From positions 1-54,164 of the forward strand of contig PMAT01000091.1 of the NCBI GenBank assembly GCA_003152695.1: a stretch of DNA of 54,164 bases, given 5' to 3'. The DNA is from Acidobacteriaceae bacterium. Lineage in GTDB: Bacteria; Acidobacteriota; Terriglobia; Terriglobales; Acidobacteriaceae. Position 1 is the stretch's first letter; each line of letters opens with the position of its first letter. The notes below the pieces were generated by a model. That model saw only the letters and a list, made by a program, of their open reading frames with translations. It made no database searches and was not told the DNA's origin. This document shows, piece after piece, positions 7,296 through 19,248 of this stretch. The translations under genes and the position numbers were made by a program.

Positions 7296-8768
7296 ATGGT
7301 GACTCCCGACTACAAAAGCTTCTTGCAACTCAGCCGTGACGCCTCGCTCATCCCGGTGGCCAAAACTCTGAGCGCCGATTTGCTGACGCCGGTCGGAGCT
7401 TTCTTGGGCCTGGCCGCCAAGCAGAAATACGCGTTTCTGCTGGAGTCAGTCGAAGGCGGCGAGAAGATCGGCCGCTACACTTTCTTGGGCGCGCAGCCGC
7501 GAATGGTCGTCACCGCCCGCGGCAGTTCGCTGGAGATTCGGCGCGGCCCGTCGGTGGAACGCCGTCAGGGCAAGGTCATCGAATTGTTGCGCACCTGCTT
7601 GCAGCAATATCGTCCCGCGACGCTGCCCAACTTGCCGCCCTTCACGTCCGGTTGCGTGGGATACTTTGCCTACGACATGGTGCGGCAGTTCGAACGCCTT
7701 CCCGAGCATGCCAGAGACGACGTTGGGTTGCCGGACTGCGTGTTCACCTTCTACGACCGGCTGCTGGCGTTCGATCACCTGCGGCACCAATTGCACATCA
7801 TCGCCGCGGCCGATGTAAGCGCGGAATCGCCGCGGAAAGCCTACGATCGCGCCCTTGCCGACATTGCCGCGATCGAGGCCAAGCTCGCCAGGGGAGTGCG
7901 CGCGCACAATTTTGACTGGTCAACCAGCGAGCGAAAGAAGCCGATCAAGGTCCACTACGCCACCTCGCACGACAAATTTGTCGCCAGCGTTCGCCGGGCC
8001 AAGGAGTACATCGCCGCCGGCGATGTCTTCCAAGTCGTGCTGTCCCAGCGCCTGGACTTCAAGCCGCCCGCCGAGCCGTTCCAGATTTATCGCGCCCTGC
8101 GCACGGTGAATCCTTCGCCCTACATGTTTTACCTGAAGCTTGACGATATGCAGGTCGTTGGCGCGTCGCCAGAGATGCTGGTGCGAGTGTCGGGGCGAAA
8201 GCTGGAATACCGACCGATCGCGGGCACGCACAGGCGGGGGGCAACCCCGGCCGAAGACGAACAACTGATCGCGAAGTTGCGCACCGACGAAAAAGAGCGC
8301 GCCGAGCACGTGATGCTGGTGGATCTGGGACGCAACGACTTGGGCCGGGTGAGCGAGTACGGCAGCGTGAAAGTCCGCGAGTTGATGTACGTGGAAAAGT
8401 ACTCGCACGTCATGCACCTGGTCTCGGCGCTGGAAGGAGAGTTGCGCGGCGATCTCGATGCGCTTGACGCGTTGGCGGCCTGCTTCCCCGCGGGCACCCT
8501 GAGCGGCGCGCCCAAAGTGCGCGCCATGGAAATCATCGAGGAGTTGGAACCGGTGCGCCGCGGCGTCTATGGAGGGTCGGTGCTCTACGCCGATTACGCG
8601 GGCAATCTGGATTCCTGCATCGCCATTCGCACCATGGTTCTGCATCGCAATCGCGCCTATGTTCAGGCAGGCGCGGGCATCGTTGCCGATTCCGATCCCG
8701 AAAGCGAGTACCAGGAGTGCATGAACAAGGCCAGCGCGTTGCTGCGGGCGGTGGAAGCCAGTGGCTAG
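7296..8768 (+). CDS. trpE: Anthranilate synthase component I
   Basis: TrpE, 490 residues, makes anthranilate from chorismate with ammonia delivered by TrpG, the first step of tryptophan synthesis. An N-terminal domain (ESVEGGEKIGRYTFLG) precedes the chorismate-binding domain with FPAGTLSGAPKVRAMEII, the GVYGGSVLYADYAG block and the terminal QAGAGIVADSDPESEY. The open frame extends upstream to 7050, but the TATAAT at 7259-7264 and homology both favour ATG 7296. trpG lies downstream, separated by an inserted-looking four-helix-bundle gene (8788-9257). Para-aminobenzoate synthase is the main alternative. Lack of a fused amidotransferase and presence of trpG next door favour TrpE. Confidence 0.93.
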   Translation: MVTPDYKSFLQLSRDASLIPVAKTLSADLLTPVGAFLGLAAKQKYAFLLESVEGGEKIGRYTFLGAQPRMVVTARGSSLEIRRGPSVERRQGKVIELLRTCLQQYRPATLPNLPPFTSGCVGYFAYDMVRQFERLPEHARDDVGLPDCVFTFYDRLLAFDHLRHQLHIIAAADVSAESPRKAYDRALADIAAIEAKLARGVRAHNFDWSTSERKKPIKVHYATSHDKFVASVRRAKEYIAAGDVFQVVLSQRLDFKPPAEPFQIYRALRTVNPSPYMFYLKLDDMQVVGASPEMLVRVSGRKLEYRPIAGTHRRGATPAEDEQLIAKLRTDEKERAEHVMLVDLGRNDLGRVSEYGSVKVRELMYVEKYSHVMHLVSALEGELRGDLDALDALAACFPAGTLSGAPKVRAMEIIEELEPVRRGVYGGSVLYADYAGNLDSCIAIRTMVLHRNRAYVQAGAGIVADSDPESEYQECMNKASALLRAVEASG

Positions 8769-8787
8769 TGATTAGTGGCTAAGAGAT

Positions 8788-9257
8788 AGTTTCGAGTTTC
8801 AAGTTTCGAGTTTCGAGCAAAAGCGCGTGCCAGTTTGGAGTAAAGCGGTGTCTCATTCCTATAAAGAGCTGATTGCGTGGCAGAAGTCGATGGCGCTGGT
8901 GAAAAGCGTCTATCTGCACACTCGTGGATTTCCCAAAGAAGAAGTGTACGGACTGGCTGCGCAGTTGCGCCGCGCGGCTGTATCGGTGCCAAGCAACATA
9001 GCAGAAGGACAAGGACGATTATCGAAGAAGGAGTTCAAACATTTCCTCTCGTTGGCCAGAGGATCGCTTCTCGAAGTCGAGACACAGGTGCTGATAGCTG
9101 CGGATTTGCATTACCTGAGTTCCGAGATTACCCAGGATCTCGAAACGCAAGCGCAAGAGGTGCTGCGGATCATCAACGCGTTGATGAACTCACTGGCCTG
9201 CTGAGAGGTATAGGTTGGGGGTCTTTACTCGAAACTTGAAACTTGAAACTCGAAACT
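8788..9257. mobile_element. 470-bp cassette bounded by 30-bp inverted repeats
   Basis: The 30 bases 8788-8817 and the reverse complement of 9228-9257 agree at 29 positions. Each end is built of heptamers AGTTTCG/AGTTTCA in tandem. The repeats enclose one gene (8827-9204) and separate trpE from trpG, which otherwise would be adjacent. Copies of degenerate AGTGATTAGTGGCTA sequence lie just outside the left end. The arrangement resembles a small transposable or transposon-mobilised unit, but no transposase is present, so mobility is inference. Confidence 0.5.
8827..9204 (+). CDS. Four-helix-bundle protein (23S rRNA intervening-sequence family)
   Basis: A 125-residue, mostly helical protein with the family signature YKELIAWQKSM, then AAQLRRAAVSVPSNIAEGQG and FLSLARGSLLEVETQ. 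Members are encoded within 23S rRNA intervening sequences of some bacteria and as free genes, and are structurally similar to the Avd protein of diversity-generating retroelements. Their molecular role is not established. The GTG at 8827 gives the longest form; a second GTG at 8848 just before HSYKEL is equally plausible, as neither has a clear ribosome-binding site. It is the only gene inside the inverted-repeat cassette between trpE and trpG. Confidence 0.85.
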   Translation: MPVWSKAVSHSYKELIAWQKSMALVKSVYLHTRGFPKEEVYGLAAQLRRAAVSVPSNIAEGQGRLSKKEFKHFLSLARGSLLEVETQVLIAADLHYLSSEITQDLETQAQEVLRIINALMNSLAC

Positions 9258-9263
9258 GAAGTT

Positions 9264-9839
9264 ATGGTTTTTGTTCTAGATAATTACGATTCGTTCACCT
9301 ATAACCTCGTCCAATACATCGGGGAGCTTGGGGTCGAAGTGTCCGTGCGTCGTAATGACCAGATCACGCTCGACGAAATCGAGGCGCTTCATCCCGATCG
9401 CATCGTGATCTCTCCCGGCCCGTGCACGCCGCAGGAGGCCGGGATCAGTATCGAACTGATCCGCCACTTCGCCGGGCGCGTGCCTCTGCTGGGCGTGTGC
9501 CTCGGCCATCAAGCCATTGGCGCAGCCTTCGGCGGCAAAGTCGTGCGTGCTGCCAACCTCATGCACGGTAAGACCAGTTCCGTCGAACACGATGGCAAAT
9601 CAATTTTCCGCGGCATTCCTTCGCCGATGACGGCGACCCGCTATCACTCGCTGATCGTCCAGGAGAAAGATTTGCCCGATGAGCTGGAAATTTCAGCCAC
9701 CTGTGCGGAGCGCGGCGGCGAGCGCGTGATCATGGGACTGCGCCATCGCAAGTTCCCGGTTGAAGGCGTTCAATTTCATCCGGAGAGCGTGCTGACGGAG
9801 CATGGCCGGCAAATCGTTCGCAACTTCATGCTTCTGTGA
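9264..9839 (+). CDS. trpG: Anthranilate synthase component II (glutamine amidotransferase)
   Basis: A 191-residue class I glutamine amidotransferase that releases ammonia from glutamine for TrpE. It starts [18 protein letters not shown], has an oxyanion-loop region [11 protein letters not shown], the nucleophile cysteine in [12 protein letters not shown] and the catalytic histidine/glutamate in [14 protein letters not shown]. The ATG at 9264 is used because the [11 protein letters not shown] start is typical of the family; an earlier in-frame start would read through the heptamer repeat ending at 9257. The same subunit often also serves para-aminobenzoate synthase (PabA), which cannot be excluded. 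Confidence 0.92.
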
Positions 9840-10623: not shown

Positions 10624-10714
10624 CACCCGCGTCCCCGCTCAGTACAGTCGAATCTCATCCTGAGTCGGTTCGGTTCGGGATTGTTCCTTGCCAATCAATG
10701 TTCGCGCGTTCCGT

Positions 10715-10862
10715 CGTCTCATCGGCGGAACTGGGAAGCGGGTGTAAAGCCCGCGCTGCCGCGCAACTGTAAGCGAGTCTTGGCGCAAGGCCACTGTGCA
10801 AACGGGAAGGCCCCGCCGCTGTCCGCGATGCAAATCGCAACTCGTCAGCCAGGAGACCGGCG
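10715..10862 (+). promoter_or_regulatory. Cobalamin riboswitch
   Basis: The conserved AdoCbl/B12 elements occur in order: GGGAAGCGGGTG followed by GCTGCCGCGCAACTGT, then CCACTG, then GGGAAGG, and finally the B12 box CGTCAGCCAGGAGACCGG (10843-10860). The element ends about 45 bases before the TonB receptor start. Known members bind adenosyl- or methylcobalamin and repress the gene when the vitamin is plentiful, usually by hiding the ribosome-binding site or forming a terminator. Confidence 0.93.
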
Positions 10863-10905
10863 CGAACTACGTCACCAACCCCTTTCGCGTGTAAAGGAGA
10901 GTGTC

Positions 10906-16360: not shown

Positions 16361-19213
16361 TTGCCCTCCACCAAGAAAACCCCGAAGTCCGCCACCGTCT
16401 CCAGCGCCGCGAAACCGGCGGTCGCCGCCAAAGCCACCATTGCTGTTCCCGCTGAGCCCACGGGATCGAAAGGCCGCATCTACCTGGTCGACACGATGTC
16501 GTTCATCTTCCGCGCCTACCATGCCATGGCGCGGCAGCGGCCCATGTCCACCAAGACCGGCATTCCCACCAGCGCGACTTTTGTCTTCGTCAACATGTTG
16601 CGCAAACTGCGAGCGGACTTCGAGCCGCAATACCTGGCTGCCGTCTTCGACGTGGCTGCGCCCACGTTTCGCGATGAGCAGGCCACCGCCATGCCCAGCC
16701 TGCGCAAGTTCGACAGCAAGACGCAGACCTATGTTGACGTGGCCTATGACGGCTACAAGGCCAATCGCAAAGCGATGCCGGAAGACTTAGCGCAGCAGGT
16801 GCCCTACATCCGGCGCGCGCTCGAGGCCTATCGCATCCCCATGATCGAGGCCTCCGGCTTCGAGGCCGACGACGTGATTGGCACCCTGGCGCGGCAAGCG
16901 GCGGACGCGGGCTATTCGGTGTTTGTGGTCTCCAGCGACAAGGACATGATGCAACTGGTCAGCGAGCGCACTTGCGTGCTGAACCCGCCCAAGGACAACC
17001 TCATCTGCGACGCTGCCAAGGTGGAAGAGATCTTGGGCGTGCCGCCGGACAAGGTCGTGGACGTGATGGCGCTGCGCGGCGATGCCATCGACAATATTCC
17101 GGGCGCACCCGGCATCGGCGACAAAGGGTCGGTGGAGCTGATCCAGCGGTTTGGCAGCGTGGAGAACGCGCTGGAGCACGCCGAGGAAGTCGAGCGCAAG
17201 GCCTATCGCGAGTCGCTGCAGAACAATCGCGACGCCATCCTGCTGAGCAAGCAGCTCGCGACCATCAAGACGGATGTCGCGGTCGAATTCGAGCCGGAAG
17301 CCATGCGCGCGCAGGAGCCCGATCCGGCTGCTGCTCGCGCGCTGTTTACCGAACTGGAGTTTACGACGCTGGTCCAGGACTTCCTGCATGAAAGCGTCGA
17401 ACTCGGCGAGACCGACTATCGCGACGCCCAATCCGCTGCCGAGGTTGAGGCTGTTGTGGCGCTCGCGAGCAGGCCAGGGGCGGTGCTCGCCATCGCGCTG
17501 GAATCGGCGGCGCAGCAGACCGCCGCAGCCGGAGAAGAGGAGAGTGGGGAAGAGCAAGACAACGAACAGCTCTCACTGTCAGCCGCGCCGCAAGTTGCGC
17601 TGGTGCCCGCAACTCTCCGCGTTGCGATTTCTGCCGAGCCCGGGAAAGCTCTGACGCTGGCGTTGGATGCCTCGGAGGTTGCCCAACCCCTAAGGCGGGC
17701 GCTTGCTGATGAGGCGATATCCAAGACCGTGCACGACTACAAGTCGGCGATGCATGTCTTTGGCCAGCGCGGGGGCCAGCACGGCCTGACGCTCGCGGGT
17801 GTGCAGCACGATCCGCTGTTGTACAGCTACTTGCTCGATCCTACCTACTCGAGCGCTGCGAGCTACGGGTTGTCGCAGACTGCGCAGCGGCACTTCAGCT
17901 TGGTATTAGGTCCGTCTCCGGCCGAAGCGGCCGACATCACGTTGCGGCTTACCGGCAAGTTGCGCGGCGAGGTCGAGCAGGCCGGCCTGTGCAAGGTTTA
18001 CGACGAGATCGATTTGCCGTTGGTGCCGGTGCTGGCGCGCATGGAAGAGGCCGGCGTCAAGCTGGACTGCGATGTGTTGGCCGCAATGTCACTGCGCTTG
18101 GAACTCGATATCAACTCGAAGGCGCGCGAGATTTACGACAAGTCGGGCTTCGAGTTCAACATCAACTCCCCCAAGCAACTGGGCGACGTGCTGTTCAACA
18201 AGCTGAACCTGCCCAAGCCGTTCAAGTACGGCAAGGGCAAGACCATCTCGACTGCGGTTGACGTGCTGGAAGGGCTGGCCGGCGAACACGAAGTTCCGCG
18301 CATGGTGCTGGATTACCGCCAGCTTTCGAAGCTCAAGTCAACCTACGTGGACGCGCTGCCCGTGCTGGTCAACTCATGCACCCGCCGGCTGCACACCACC
18401 TTCAACATGGCCGGCTCGGCCACCGGACGGCTCTCGTCCGTGAACCCGAACCTGCAGAACATTCCGATTCGCACTGAGCTTGGCCGCGAAATCCGCGCCG
18501 CCTTCATCGCCGAGCCCGGACATGTGTTGCTGGCCGCCGACTACTCGCAGATTGAATTGCGTCTGCTGGCGCACTTCTCCGGCGACAAGCTGCTGGTCGA
18601 GGCCTACCGCACCGGCGAGGACATTCACACCCTCACGGCCTCGCAGGTATTCGGCGTGCCGCCGCTGATGGTCAATCCCGAACATCGCCGCCGCGCCAAG
18701 GCGGTAAACTTCGGCATCGTCTATGGGCTGTCGCCGTTCGGACTGTCGCAGCAGCTCGGCATCGACACCAAAGAAGCCAAGCGCTTCATCGATGCCTATT
18801 TCGAGAAGTACAGCGGGGTGCGCAGCTTCATCGACGCAACCCTGCACCAGGCGCGCCGCGATCAGAAAGTGACAACGCTGTTTGGGCGCGTGCGTCCCAT
18901 CCCCGACATCCACAGCAAGAACAGCAACCTGCGCGGCTTTGCCGAGCGCACCGCGGTGAACACGCCGCTGCAGGGAACTGCCGCCGACCTCATCAAGATT
19001 GCCATGATTCGCATTGACGCCGAGCTGCGCGAGCGCAAACTGCGCTCAAGAATGCTGCTCCAGGTGCACGACGAACTGGTATTCGAAGTTCCCGAGGACG
19101 AAGTGGATACCATGAGGCGGCTGGTCACCGACCGCATGGAGAATGTGCACGCGCTTAAGGTGCCGCTCAGAGTGGAAGTTGGCGTGGGGCCAAATTGGCG
19201 GGACCTGGAGTAA
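16361..19213 (+). CDS. polA: DNA polymerase I
   Basis: A 950-residue family A polymerase for gap filling and primer removal. An Ala/Lys-rich N-terminal tail (about 1-35) precedes the 5' nuclease (about 38-340, YLVDTMSFIFRAYHAM, GFEADDVIGTLA, GDAIDNIPG), a 3'-5' exonuclease-like domain (about 350-560) and the polymerase (about 560-950) with motif A LLAADYSQIELRL, motif B RRRAKAVNFGIVYG and motif C LQVHDELVFEV. In the exonuclease region the acidic residues are lost: AIALES (379-381 reads ALE) replaces DxE, KSA replaces KYD, and SPAEAADIT replaces YAAEDADVT. Proofreading is therefore probably absent, as in Taq. The start is a TTG at 16361 and is uncertain. Confidence 0.95.
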   Translation: MPSTKKTPKSATVSSAAKPAVAAKATIAVPAEPTGSKGRIYLVDTMSFIFRAYHAMARQRPMSTKTGIPTSATFVFVNMLRKLRADFEPQYLAAVFDVAAPTFRDEQATAMPSLRKFDSKTQTYVDVAYDGYKANRKAMPEDLAQQVPYIRRALEAYRIPMIEASGFEADDVIGTLARQAADAGYSVFVVSSDKDMMQLVSERTCVLNPPKDNLICDAAKVEEILGVPPDKVVDVMALRGDAIDNIPGAPGIGDKGSVELIQRFGSVENALEHAEEVERKAYRESLQNNRDAILLSKQLATIKTDVAVEFEPEAMRAQEPDPAAARALFTELEFTTLVQDFLHESVELGETDYRDAQSAAEVEAVVALASRPGAVLAIALESAAQQTAAAGEEESGEEQDNEQLSLSAAPQVALVPATLRVAISAEPGKALTLALDASEVAQPLRRALADEAISKTVHDYKSAMHVFGQRGGQHGLTLAGVQHDPLLYSYLLDPTYSSAASYGLSQTAQRHFSLVLGPSPAEAADITLRLTGKLRGEVEQAGLCKVYDEIDLPLVPVLARMEEAGVKLDCDVLAAMSLRLELDINSKAREIYDKSGFEFNINSPKQLGDVLFNKLNLPKPFKYGKGKTISTAVDVLEGLAGEHEVPRMVLDYRQLSKLKSTYVDALPVLVNSCTRRLHTTFNMAGSATGRLSSVNPNLQNIPIRTELGREIRAAFIAEPGHVLLAADYSQIELRLLAHFSGDKLLVEAYRTGEDIHTLTASQVFGVPPLMVNPEHRRRAKAVNFGIVYGLSPFGLSQQLGIDTKEAKRFIDAYFEKYSGVRSFIDATLHQARRDQKVTTLFGRVRPIPDIHSKNSNLRGFAERTAVNTPLQGTAADLIKIAMIRIDAELRERKLRSRMLLQVHDELVFEVPEDEVDTMRRLVTDRMENVHALKVPLRVEVGVGPNWRDLE

Positions 19214-19214
19214 G

Positions 19215-19248
19215 AAGCTCTCAGCCGTCAGCCATCGGCTGTCAGCTT
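19215..19248. terminator. Bidirectional hairpin between polA and glmM
   Basis: A long imperfect inverted repeat just after the polA stop: 11 of 13 bases pair between AAGCTCTCAGCCG and CGGCTGTCAGCTT around an eight-base loop. A strong T-run is missing, so it is a possible rather than a certain terminator for the convergent genes. Confidence 0.4.

Follow-up and report, generated by a model that had tools for sequence, protein, structure and literature searches.

Intervening sequences (IVS) of rRNA genes are the closest described counterparts of the element reported here. The IVS of Coxiella contains an S23 gene together with terminal inverted repeats and repeated heptamers; its inverted end measures 28 bp, and GACAGAT occurs three times in tandem before the S23 gene (PMC4990558). 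The number of GACAGAT repeats differs between strains, the IVS with its S23 gene is cut by RNase III, and earlier ideas of IVS mobility are cited in the same paper (PMC4990558). Heptamer arrays have also been described on their own. The GGGAATC and GGGGAYT arrays of Xanthomonas and Nostoc (186 and 183 arrays, with 70 and 75 convergent pairs) mostly have four units, are intergenic and fast-varying, and their role was left unexplained (PMC4692102). They were published as quadruplex DNA, since GGGAATC repeats form a quadruplex in vitro, and they lie near gene ends; the terms "four-helix" and "XCC0516" are absent from the main text of that paper (Rehm et al. 2015, PMC4692102). Seven-base STRRs of Nostoc were likewise described without a known function (PMC2670836).

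In diversity-generating retroelements a reverse transcriptase adjoins an Avd-like gene. The REP/REPIN-RAYT layout consists of a single gene (TnpA-REP) flanked by inverted short elements, which also occur without the gene at many places. No paper linking S23 genes generally with heptamer arrays was found in the open-licence literature. The earlier note knew of no description of a unit such as the one analyzed below; this holds, within that literature, for the general link between S23 genes and arrays, but not for the layout itself, which the Coxiella IVS already has, nor for the arrays alone, which are on record in Xanthomonas and Nostoc.

An S23 gene between inverted heptamer arrays in the trp operon

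The stretch of DNA analyzed (the window, 54,164 nucleotides) is contig C132 of genome G000, which we compared with congeners (G060 to G067) and with other genera, among them those of G001 and G003. The features of the locus are as follows.

7296..8768, plus strand: trpE, the upstream host gene (TIGR00564, above cut-off)
8760..8780, plus strand: three-unit array of another heptamer, AGTGGCT AGTGATT AGTGGCT (sequence; TRF row 8760-8787)
8788..8821, plus strand: left end, four GTTTCRA units read inwards (inverted-repeat comparison, TRF)
8848..9204, plus strand: S23 / 23S_rRNA_IVP four-helix-bundle gene, 118 aa from GTG (PF05635, E 4e-39; AlphaFold model)
9224..9257, minus strand: right end, again four GTTTCRA units that read inwards (inverted-repeat comparison, TRF)
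9264..9839, plus strand: trpG, the downstream host gene (TIGR00566, above cut-off)

The earlier note had described 30-base inverted ends agreeing at 29 of 30 positions around a single four-helix-bundle gene, and both points were borne out. The arms, which are inverted repeats of AGTTTCR heptamers, extend to 34 nt and agree at 32 of them (94%). The sequence GTTTCRAGTTTC, with at most one mismatch allowed, matched six times in the window, always inside the two arms, against 0.46 matches expected and a maximum of 3 in 100 shuffles. The enclosed gene, for which a longer start is possible at 8827, encodes a protein scoring 133.5 bits in a profile search against PF05635 (curated cut-off 33.8). It is the only gene of the unit, which has no transposase or recombinase gene, whereas a transposase gene would be expected in an insertion sequence or in a MITE of a DDE transposase. 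The element shares with the rRNA IVS an S23 gene between complementary ends, and with that of Coxiella heptamers before the gene, but the IVS lies in rRNA genes and this element in a protein-coding operon. No rRNA gene was found around the S23 gene, the only Rfam match above threshold in the whole window being a cobalamin riboswitch (RF00174, 86.4 bits, 10687-10879) upstream of a large ORF that reaches 13134 and by eye resembles a TonB-dependent receptor.

The stop codon of trpE sits within the AGTGGCT/AGTGATT array at 8760-8780. In G001 the S23 element of the trp site is likewise bounded by AGTGGCT-type heptamers, and the array in the window is possibly the scar of an earlier element.

The AlphaFold model of the S23 protein (pLDDT 96.8) superimposed on 2gsc with a Z score of 22.2 (rmsd 0.9, 115 residues aligned), which makes it an XCC0516-like four-helix bundle; 2rld followed with a Z score of 17.9. 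Avd of diversity-generating retroelements has the same fold (Z 15.7 with Avd in the complex 8ube, Z 15.4 with 4dwl). Fold matches outside S23 and Avd, such as plant inhibitors and designed bundles, reached Z scores of 13.0 and below and were taken as common helical-bundle similarity. To our knowledge no catalytic site has been described in S23. A sequence search led to two solved relatives, 2gsc and 2rld, both with five chains, and an S23-family protein of Xanthomonas forms a ring (PMC4990558); by analogy the protein of the window probably forms one too.

Recurrence of the ends, their grammar and their match to the protein

To see how often S23 genes have such ends we surveyed the family with one genome per genus, 60 in all, of which 45 contain PF05635. 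We took 92 loci, 72 of them strong (drawn from the best-scoring matches listed) and 20 divergent (about 50-71 bits), and compared the 250 nt upstream of each gene with the 250 nt downstream, counting the best ungapped inverted repeat as a match at a score of at least 13. Matching inverted ends were present at 66 of the 72 strong loci and 19 of the 20 divergent ones, six strong loci being without them at this threshold. In control flanks 500 nt further out the figures were 1/71 and 0/20, and among mismatched pairs of loci 12/216 (strong) and 5/60 (divergent). As arrays, 100 of 144 strong arms scored at least 11, the best period being 7 in 95 of them and 8 or 9 in five; period-7 arrays were found in none of 143 outer flanks. 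For the divergent group a bAvd-like label was considered and dropped: all six proteins tested exceed the PF05635 cut-off (54-72 bits), and none matched PF22296 at E 0.001.

The spelling of the heptamer varies between elements, while within an element the two ends agree. When the 95 strong arms were aligned in phase and read from the outside inwards on both arms, they gave the grammar N-R-G-Y-N-N-Y (R 0.91, G 0.97, Y 0.89 and 0.95). Its information content was 4.03 bits, compared with a mean of 2.30 and a maximum of 2.47 in column-permuted nulls and a maximum of 2.94 in strand-randomised nulls. The divergent loci (L110-L129) have an end grammar of their own with periods of 7 to 9, in which an AAT(T/C)(G/T) core is clearest at period 8 (13 arms). 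The order of the repeat variants also agreed between arms: over 62 loci taken together, the agreement exceeded that of every one of 1000 unit shuffles; this is a summed effect, with 42 of the 62 loci above their own null mean at the free positions. Arrays usually have four to five units. At least five were counted in 91/144 strong arms, against 0/143 outer flanks and 16/144 arms read on the opposite strand. The modal number was five by a lenient rule (58/144 arms) and four by a strict one (49/144 arms), and the order analysis overcounts runs of 3 and 4 units, which also turn up in outer flanks (57/143). The idea of exactly five repeats for five subunits was rejected, the data giving four to five only.

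The heptamer type follows the ancestry of the S23 protein rather than the host genome. Over 64 loci, protein distance and heptamer distance were correlated with a rho of 0.32, a value reached by none of 2000 permutations (largest 0.087), and for 54 of the 64 the heptamer of the nearest protein relative in another genome was closer than average. Heptamers within one genome were hardly closer than those of different genomes (3.20 against 3.23). Over the 60 genomes the number of R-G-Y arrays tracked that of S23 genes (Spearman 0.75), with a median array excess over a backward control of 92 in the 45 S23-bearing genomes and 6 in the 15 S23-free ones; there were exceptions in both directions, several S23-bearing genomes having no array excess and several S23-free genomes having one. 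We also observed, on contigs C5, C7, C8 and C9 of G044, many AGTCGTC/AGCCGTC arrays, some of them head-to-tail at steps of about 78 or 85 bp.

A wide sample of 90 usable loci, taken from the best 80 genome loci by similarity to XCC0516, eight plasmid records and IMG/VR contigs and thus made up of top loci rather than random ones, extended this layout beyond the phylum. Matching ends were present at 73 of the 90 loci, against 2 of 80 outer flanks, and absent at 17 at the chosen threshold. Arms scored as arrays in 131 of 182 cases, with period 7 best in 105, compared with 17 of 172 outer flanks, eight of them with period 7. The core G (0.93) again followed a purine, with 3.15 bits against a null maximum of 2.70. 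Judged by record titles, with phyla mostly of our own assignment, the loci with ends include Pseudomonadota, Bacteroidota, Bacillota, Cyanobacteriota, Planctomycetota, Verrucomicrobiota, Chloroflexota, Gemmatimonadota, Nitrospirota, Acidobacteriota and candidate phyla. To look for rRNA insertions among the S23 loci without ends we ran Rfam on 16 loci (14 of the 17, L264, whose arm was too short to test, and L313, which has ends). None gave a match, and rRNA insertion was rejected as the explanation for the end-less loci run.

The XCC0516-like genes of three Xanthomonas species have inverted GGGAATC-type arrays as their ends, the three loci probably being one ancestral locus. Ends of the GGGAATC type also bound a Luteimonas S23 gene, and GGGATTC ends a Dokdonella one. 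The published GGGAATC and GGGGAYT arrays share with these elements the seven-base, intergenic, convergent-pair layout, and the GGGAATC type bounds S23 genes in Xanthomonas and Luteimonas. On a Nostoc plasmid, however, an S23 gene lies between GGGAGTA arrays and not between the GGGGAYT arrays described for Nostoc (PMC4692102). Plasmids also supplied two further observations. On a Nostoc edaphicum plasmid (L306, 1492-1860) an antisense S23 element lies between two ribonucleotide reductase subunit genes, and on a Picosynechococcus plasmid (L310, 1495-1851) an S23 gene with short matching ends lies between cas10/cmr2 and a cmr3-family gene. Eighteen S23 genes have been reported inside cas loci (PMC3936711), and these may reflect insertions like that of L310.

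Occupied, empty and gene-less sites

Four PF05635 matches were found in G000, each adjoining period-7 arrays. By eye, the three outside the trp operon carry different heptamers: AGCACTC-type arrays flank an S23 gene on both sides on C30, TTAGCAN-type arrays do so on C86, and a CCACTRR array lies on one side of a truncated S23 gene on C57. The movement of one single heptamer family in G000 was rejected on this ground. The GTTTCRA type matched 40 times in this genome, 20 times per strand and never when the pattern was read backward. These matches are spread over about 18 places, at one of which an S23 gene lies between the arrays. At five places an inverted pair of arrays encloses 100-140 bp without a gene, the second array being a single unit in one of them, and an S23 remnant was recognisable by HMM in 1 of 10 gene-less array places. 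Elsewhere in the window a lone R-G-Y array (AGCTCTC AGCCGTC AGCCATC GGCTGTC AGC, 19216-19242) was observed right after the stop codon of the DNA polymerase I gene (16361-19213; NF004397, TIGR00593), without an adjoining S23 gene.

A single gene between inverted short elements, with gene-less inverted copies elsewhere in the genome, is also what REPIN and RAYT present, but RAYT is a catalytic Y1 transposase and G000 (99.38% complete) has no Y1 transposase match (PF01797, Y1_Tnp). The two reverse transcriptase matches of G000 are on C59 and C69 and not on the window contig, unlike in a diversity-generating retroelement, and G061 and G063 (82% and 90% complete) had no reverse transcriptase match. 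Neither enzyme was therefore retained as an obligatory partner.

The earlier note had also claimed that the cassette separates trpE from trpG, which are usually adjacent, and comparison of this site in relatives confirmed it. In the sister family the gap is short in 11 of 12 genomes (30-87 nt from the end of the trpE match to the DNYDS motif of trpG), the twelfth being cut by a contig end. Within the genus the GTTTC element is present in G000, G061, G063 and G065, only one array is left in G062, whose trpE is 97% identical, and the site is empty in G067 (25 nt). The unit probably arrived between trpE and trpG in an ancestor that part of the genus shares. Where S23 genes occupy the same gap in other genera they too have ends, of other types: in G001 the gene belongs to another S23 type and its ends are AGTGGCT-type, and in G003 it is truncated and has a right array of the GTTTCAC type. 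Neither of the two outcomes that the earlier note named as refuting its reading was observed, as these S23 genes of other genera have ends and further copies bounded by such ends are present.

Other sites show gain and loss as well. A gene-less array pair of G000, C1a, corresponds to a full S23 element in G061 and G062, indicating that some gene-less pairs are deletion scars; an apparent empty C1a site in G063 was rejected as an assembly gap of Ns. At the C30 site, where G000 has an S23 gene, the left-side arrays of G061-G065 keep Y-A-G-C-N-N-Y while their N positions differ, and the right-side arrays are of other types. One element of G065 (G065_C41) is absent from G000, G061, G062 and G064, and another (G065_C130a) is absent from G067. 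No target duplication was seen at these two occupied/empty pairs, whose flanks are only about 66-86% identical and could hide one. A 13-bp direct repeat at C100c was considered as a target-site duplication, but we read it as better explained by local tandem duplication. When the flanks of 16 G000 sites were searched in five congeners, one clean empty site was found (C100c in G062); recent movement therefore looks rare.

Similarity limited to the element was observed between different sites. The G064 element at the topA site (L323) and a G060 element (L327) are similar in DNA over gene and arrays only, their flanks being dissimilar; both have TTCGCTN-type arrays and their S23 proteins are 75% identical. 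Against a G065 copy, whose flanks match those of G060, the identity is 82%. The low inverted-repeat score of the G064 element (10) is due to a right end disturbed, in our reading, by a piece of a second copy. In the same way only the gene and the left array are similar between the C86 element of G000 and G065_C130a, with S23 proteins 81% identical. At the topA site (downstream gene TIGR01051), G061, G062, G063, G064 and G066 all have S23 genes, with mutual identities of only 50-71% and different ends. This pattern is one of turnover at favoured gaps and not proof of a mechanism.

The earlier suggestion that S23 genes and heptamer ends move as a unit stands in so far as the units occupy and vacate sites and the layout recurs very widely. 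It fails in so far as the heptamer is not one sequence, each S23 type having its own.

A probable selfish unit and the alternatives

We class the element of the window as the form of the S23 intervening-sequence element that is intergenic, multi-copy and diverse in its repeats: unlike the rRNA IVS, its relatives occupy gaps between genes, a single genome can have several of them, their heptamers are spelled in many ways, and derivatives without the gene occur. We consider it probable that the S23 element is a selfish unit of about 470 bp whose arrays are recognised by its own S23 protein and which host enzymes copy or join into intergenic gaps. The unit has a single S23 gene with an inverted array of some four to five heptamers on either side. 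In the proposed mechanism the S23 ring would most likely recognise its own arrays in single- or double-stranded form, with an R-G-Y step read every seven bases and perhaps each step by one subunit. A ring of this kind, reading four to five in-phase R-G-Y steps at both ends, would account for the constancy of the core and the freedom of the N positions, and also for the agreement between the two ends and between heptamer and protein lineage. Once both ends are recognised, enzymes of the host would be able to copy the unit, or join it, into gaps. Where the gene is lost, arrays would remain in pairs or singly, and S23 proteins made elsewhere may keep or move some of them. We infer the binding, the matching of ring to repeat, and the enzyme and mechanism of movement.

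The alternative that survives best, although we think it unlikely, places the function in RNA: the transcript ends would pair, RNase III would excise the unit as in the 23S IVS with little harm to trpEG expression, and S23 would bind RNA. The arms are indeed complementary in matched repeat order, RNase III cuts the Coxiella IVS with its S23 gene (PMC4990558), and the related Avd belongs to a ribonucleoprotein (8ube). Arm mismatches of the divergent group lean towards G-U-compatible ones (24 vs 12, p 0.065), but this bias is absent in the strong group (67 vs 57, p 0.42) and reversed in the wide sample (59 G-U-compatible vs 108, p 2e-4), so that a selected gene-sense RNA stem has no support by this measure in two of the three groups. 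Moreover, S23 is antisense to both neighbours in the plasmid cases of Nostoc and Calothrix sp. PCC 7716.

It is more doubtful still that the arrays came first, growing by slippage in intergenic regions and serving as landing sites for S23 genes. Arrays far outnumber S23 genes, as the 40 GTTTC-type matches of G000 with their one S23 gene illustrate, and the array excess persists in some S23-free genomes. Slippage, however, leaves the shared R-G-Y grammar with its drifting N positions unexplained. Across genera, the two ends agree with one another and with the S23 lineage; similarity at different sites takes in gene and array jointly, and the C1a pair is the remainder of an S23 element. That the arrays serve as regulatory or structural DNA, as a G-quadruplex, a terminator-like element or a stabiliser of transcripts, with S23 as a bystander, is very improbable: the quadruplex of GGGAATC repeats in vitro and the position of those arrays near gene ends (PMC4692102) would fit, but many heptamers have no run of three G (AGTTTCR, AGCANTC, CAGTTCT) and the link to S23 still holds. 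Finally, we give next to no credence to the S23 gene as a resident regulator of the trp operon: it is present there in several congeners and a related gene in G001 and G003, but the site is empty in G067 and in the 11 readable sister-family genomes, is reduced to one array in G062, and is occupied in G001 by another S23 type with other ends.

As to the proposed selfish S23 unit, the same layout around S23 relatives in many phyla suggests widespread and largely overlooked selfish DNA. A broader version, which we put forward tentatively and at somewhat less than even odds, is that S23 rings form a pan-bacterial mobile class in which a non-enzymatic five-subunit ring would read one R-G-Y step per seven bases, each lineage having its own heptamer code, with protein and ends co-evolving and host enzymes doing the cutting; rRNA IVS, the Nostoc STRRs and the Xanthomonas GGGAATC arrays would be members or scars of this class. 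The main interest lies in connecting a protein family that lacks an explanation with several repeat families that lack one too. If the connection is true, S23 (PF05635), a large family whose function is not known, would gain a concrete binding partner, the orphan heptamer arrays of Xanthomonas and perhaps those of Nostoc would be explained, and rRNA intervening sequences would fall within a much wider family of elements. Caution would also apply to the S23 genes reported in cas loci (PMC3936711), which may be passengers and not parts of CRISPR systems. The match between protein and heptamer could then be read as a natural recognition code.
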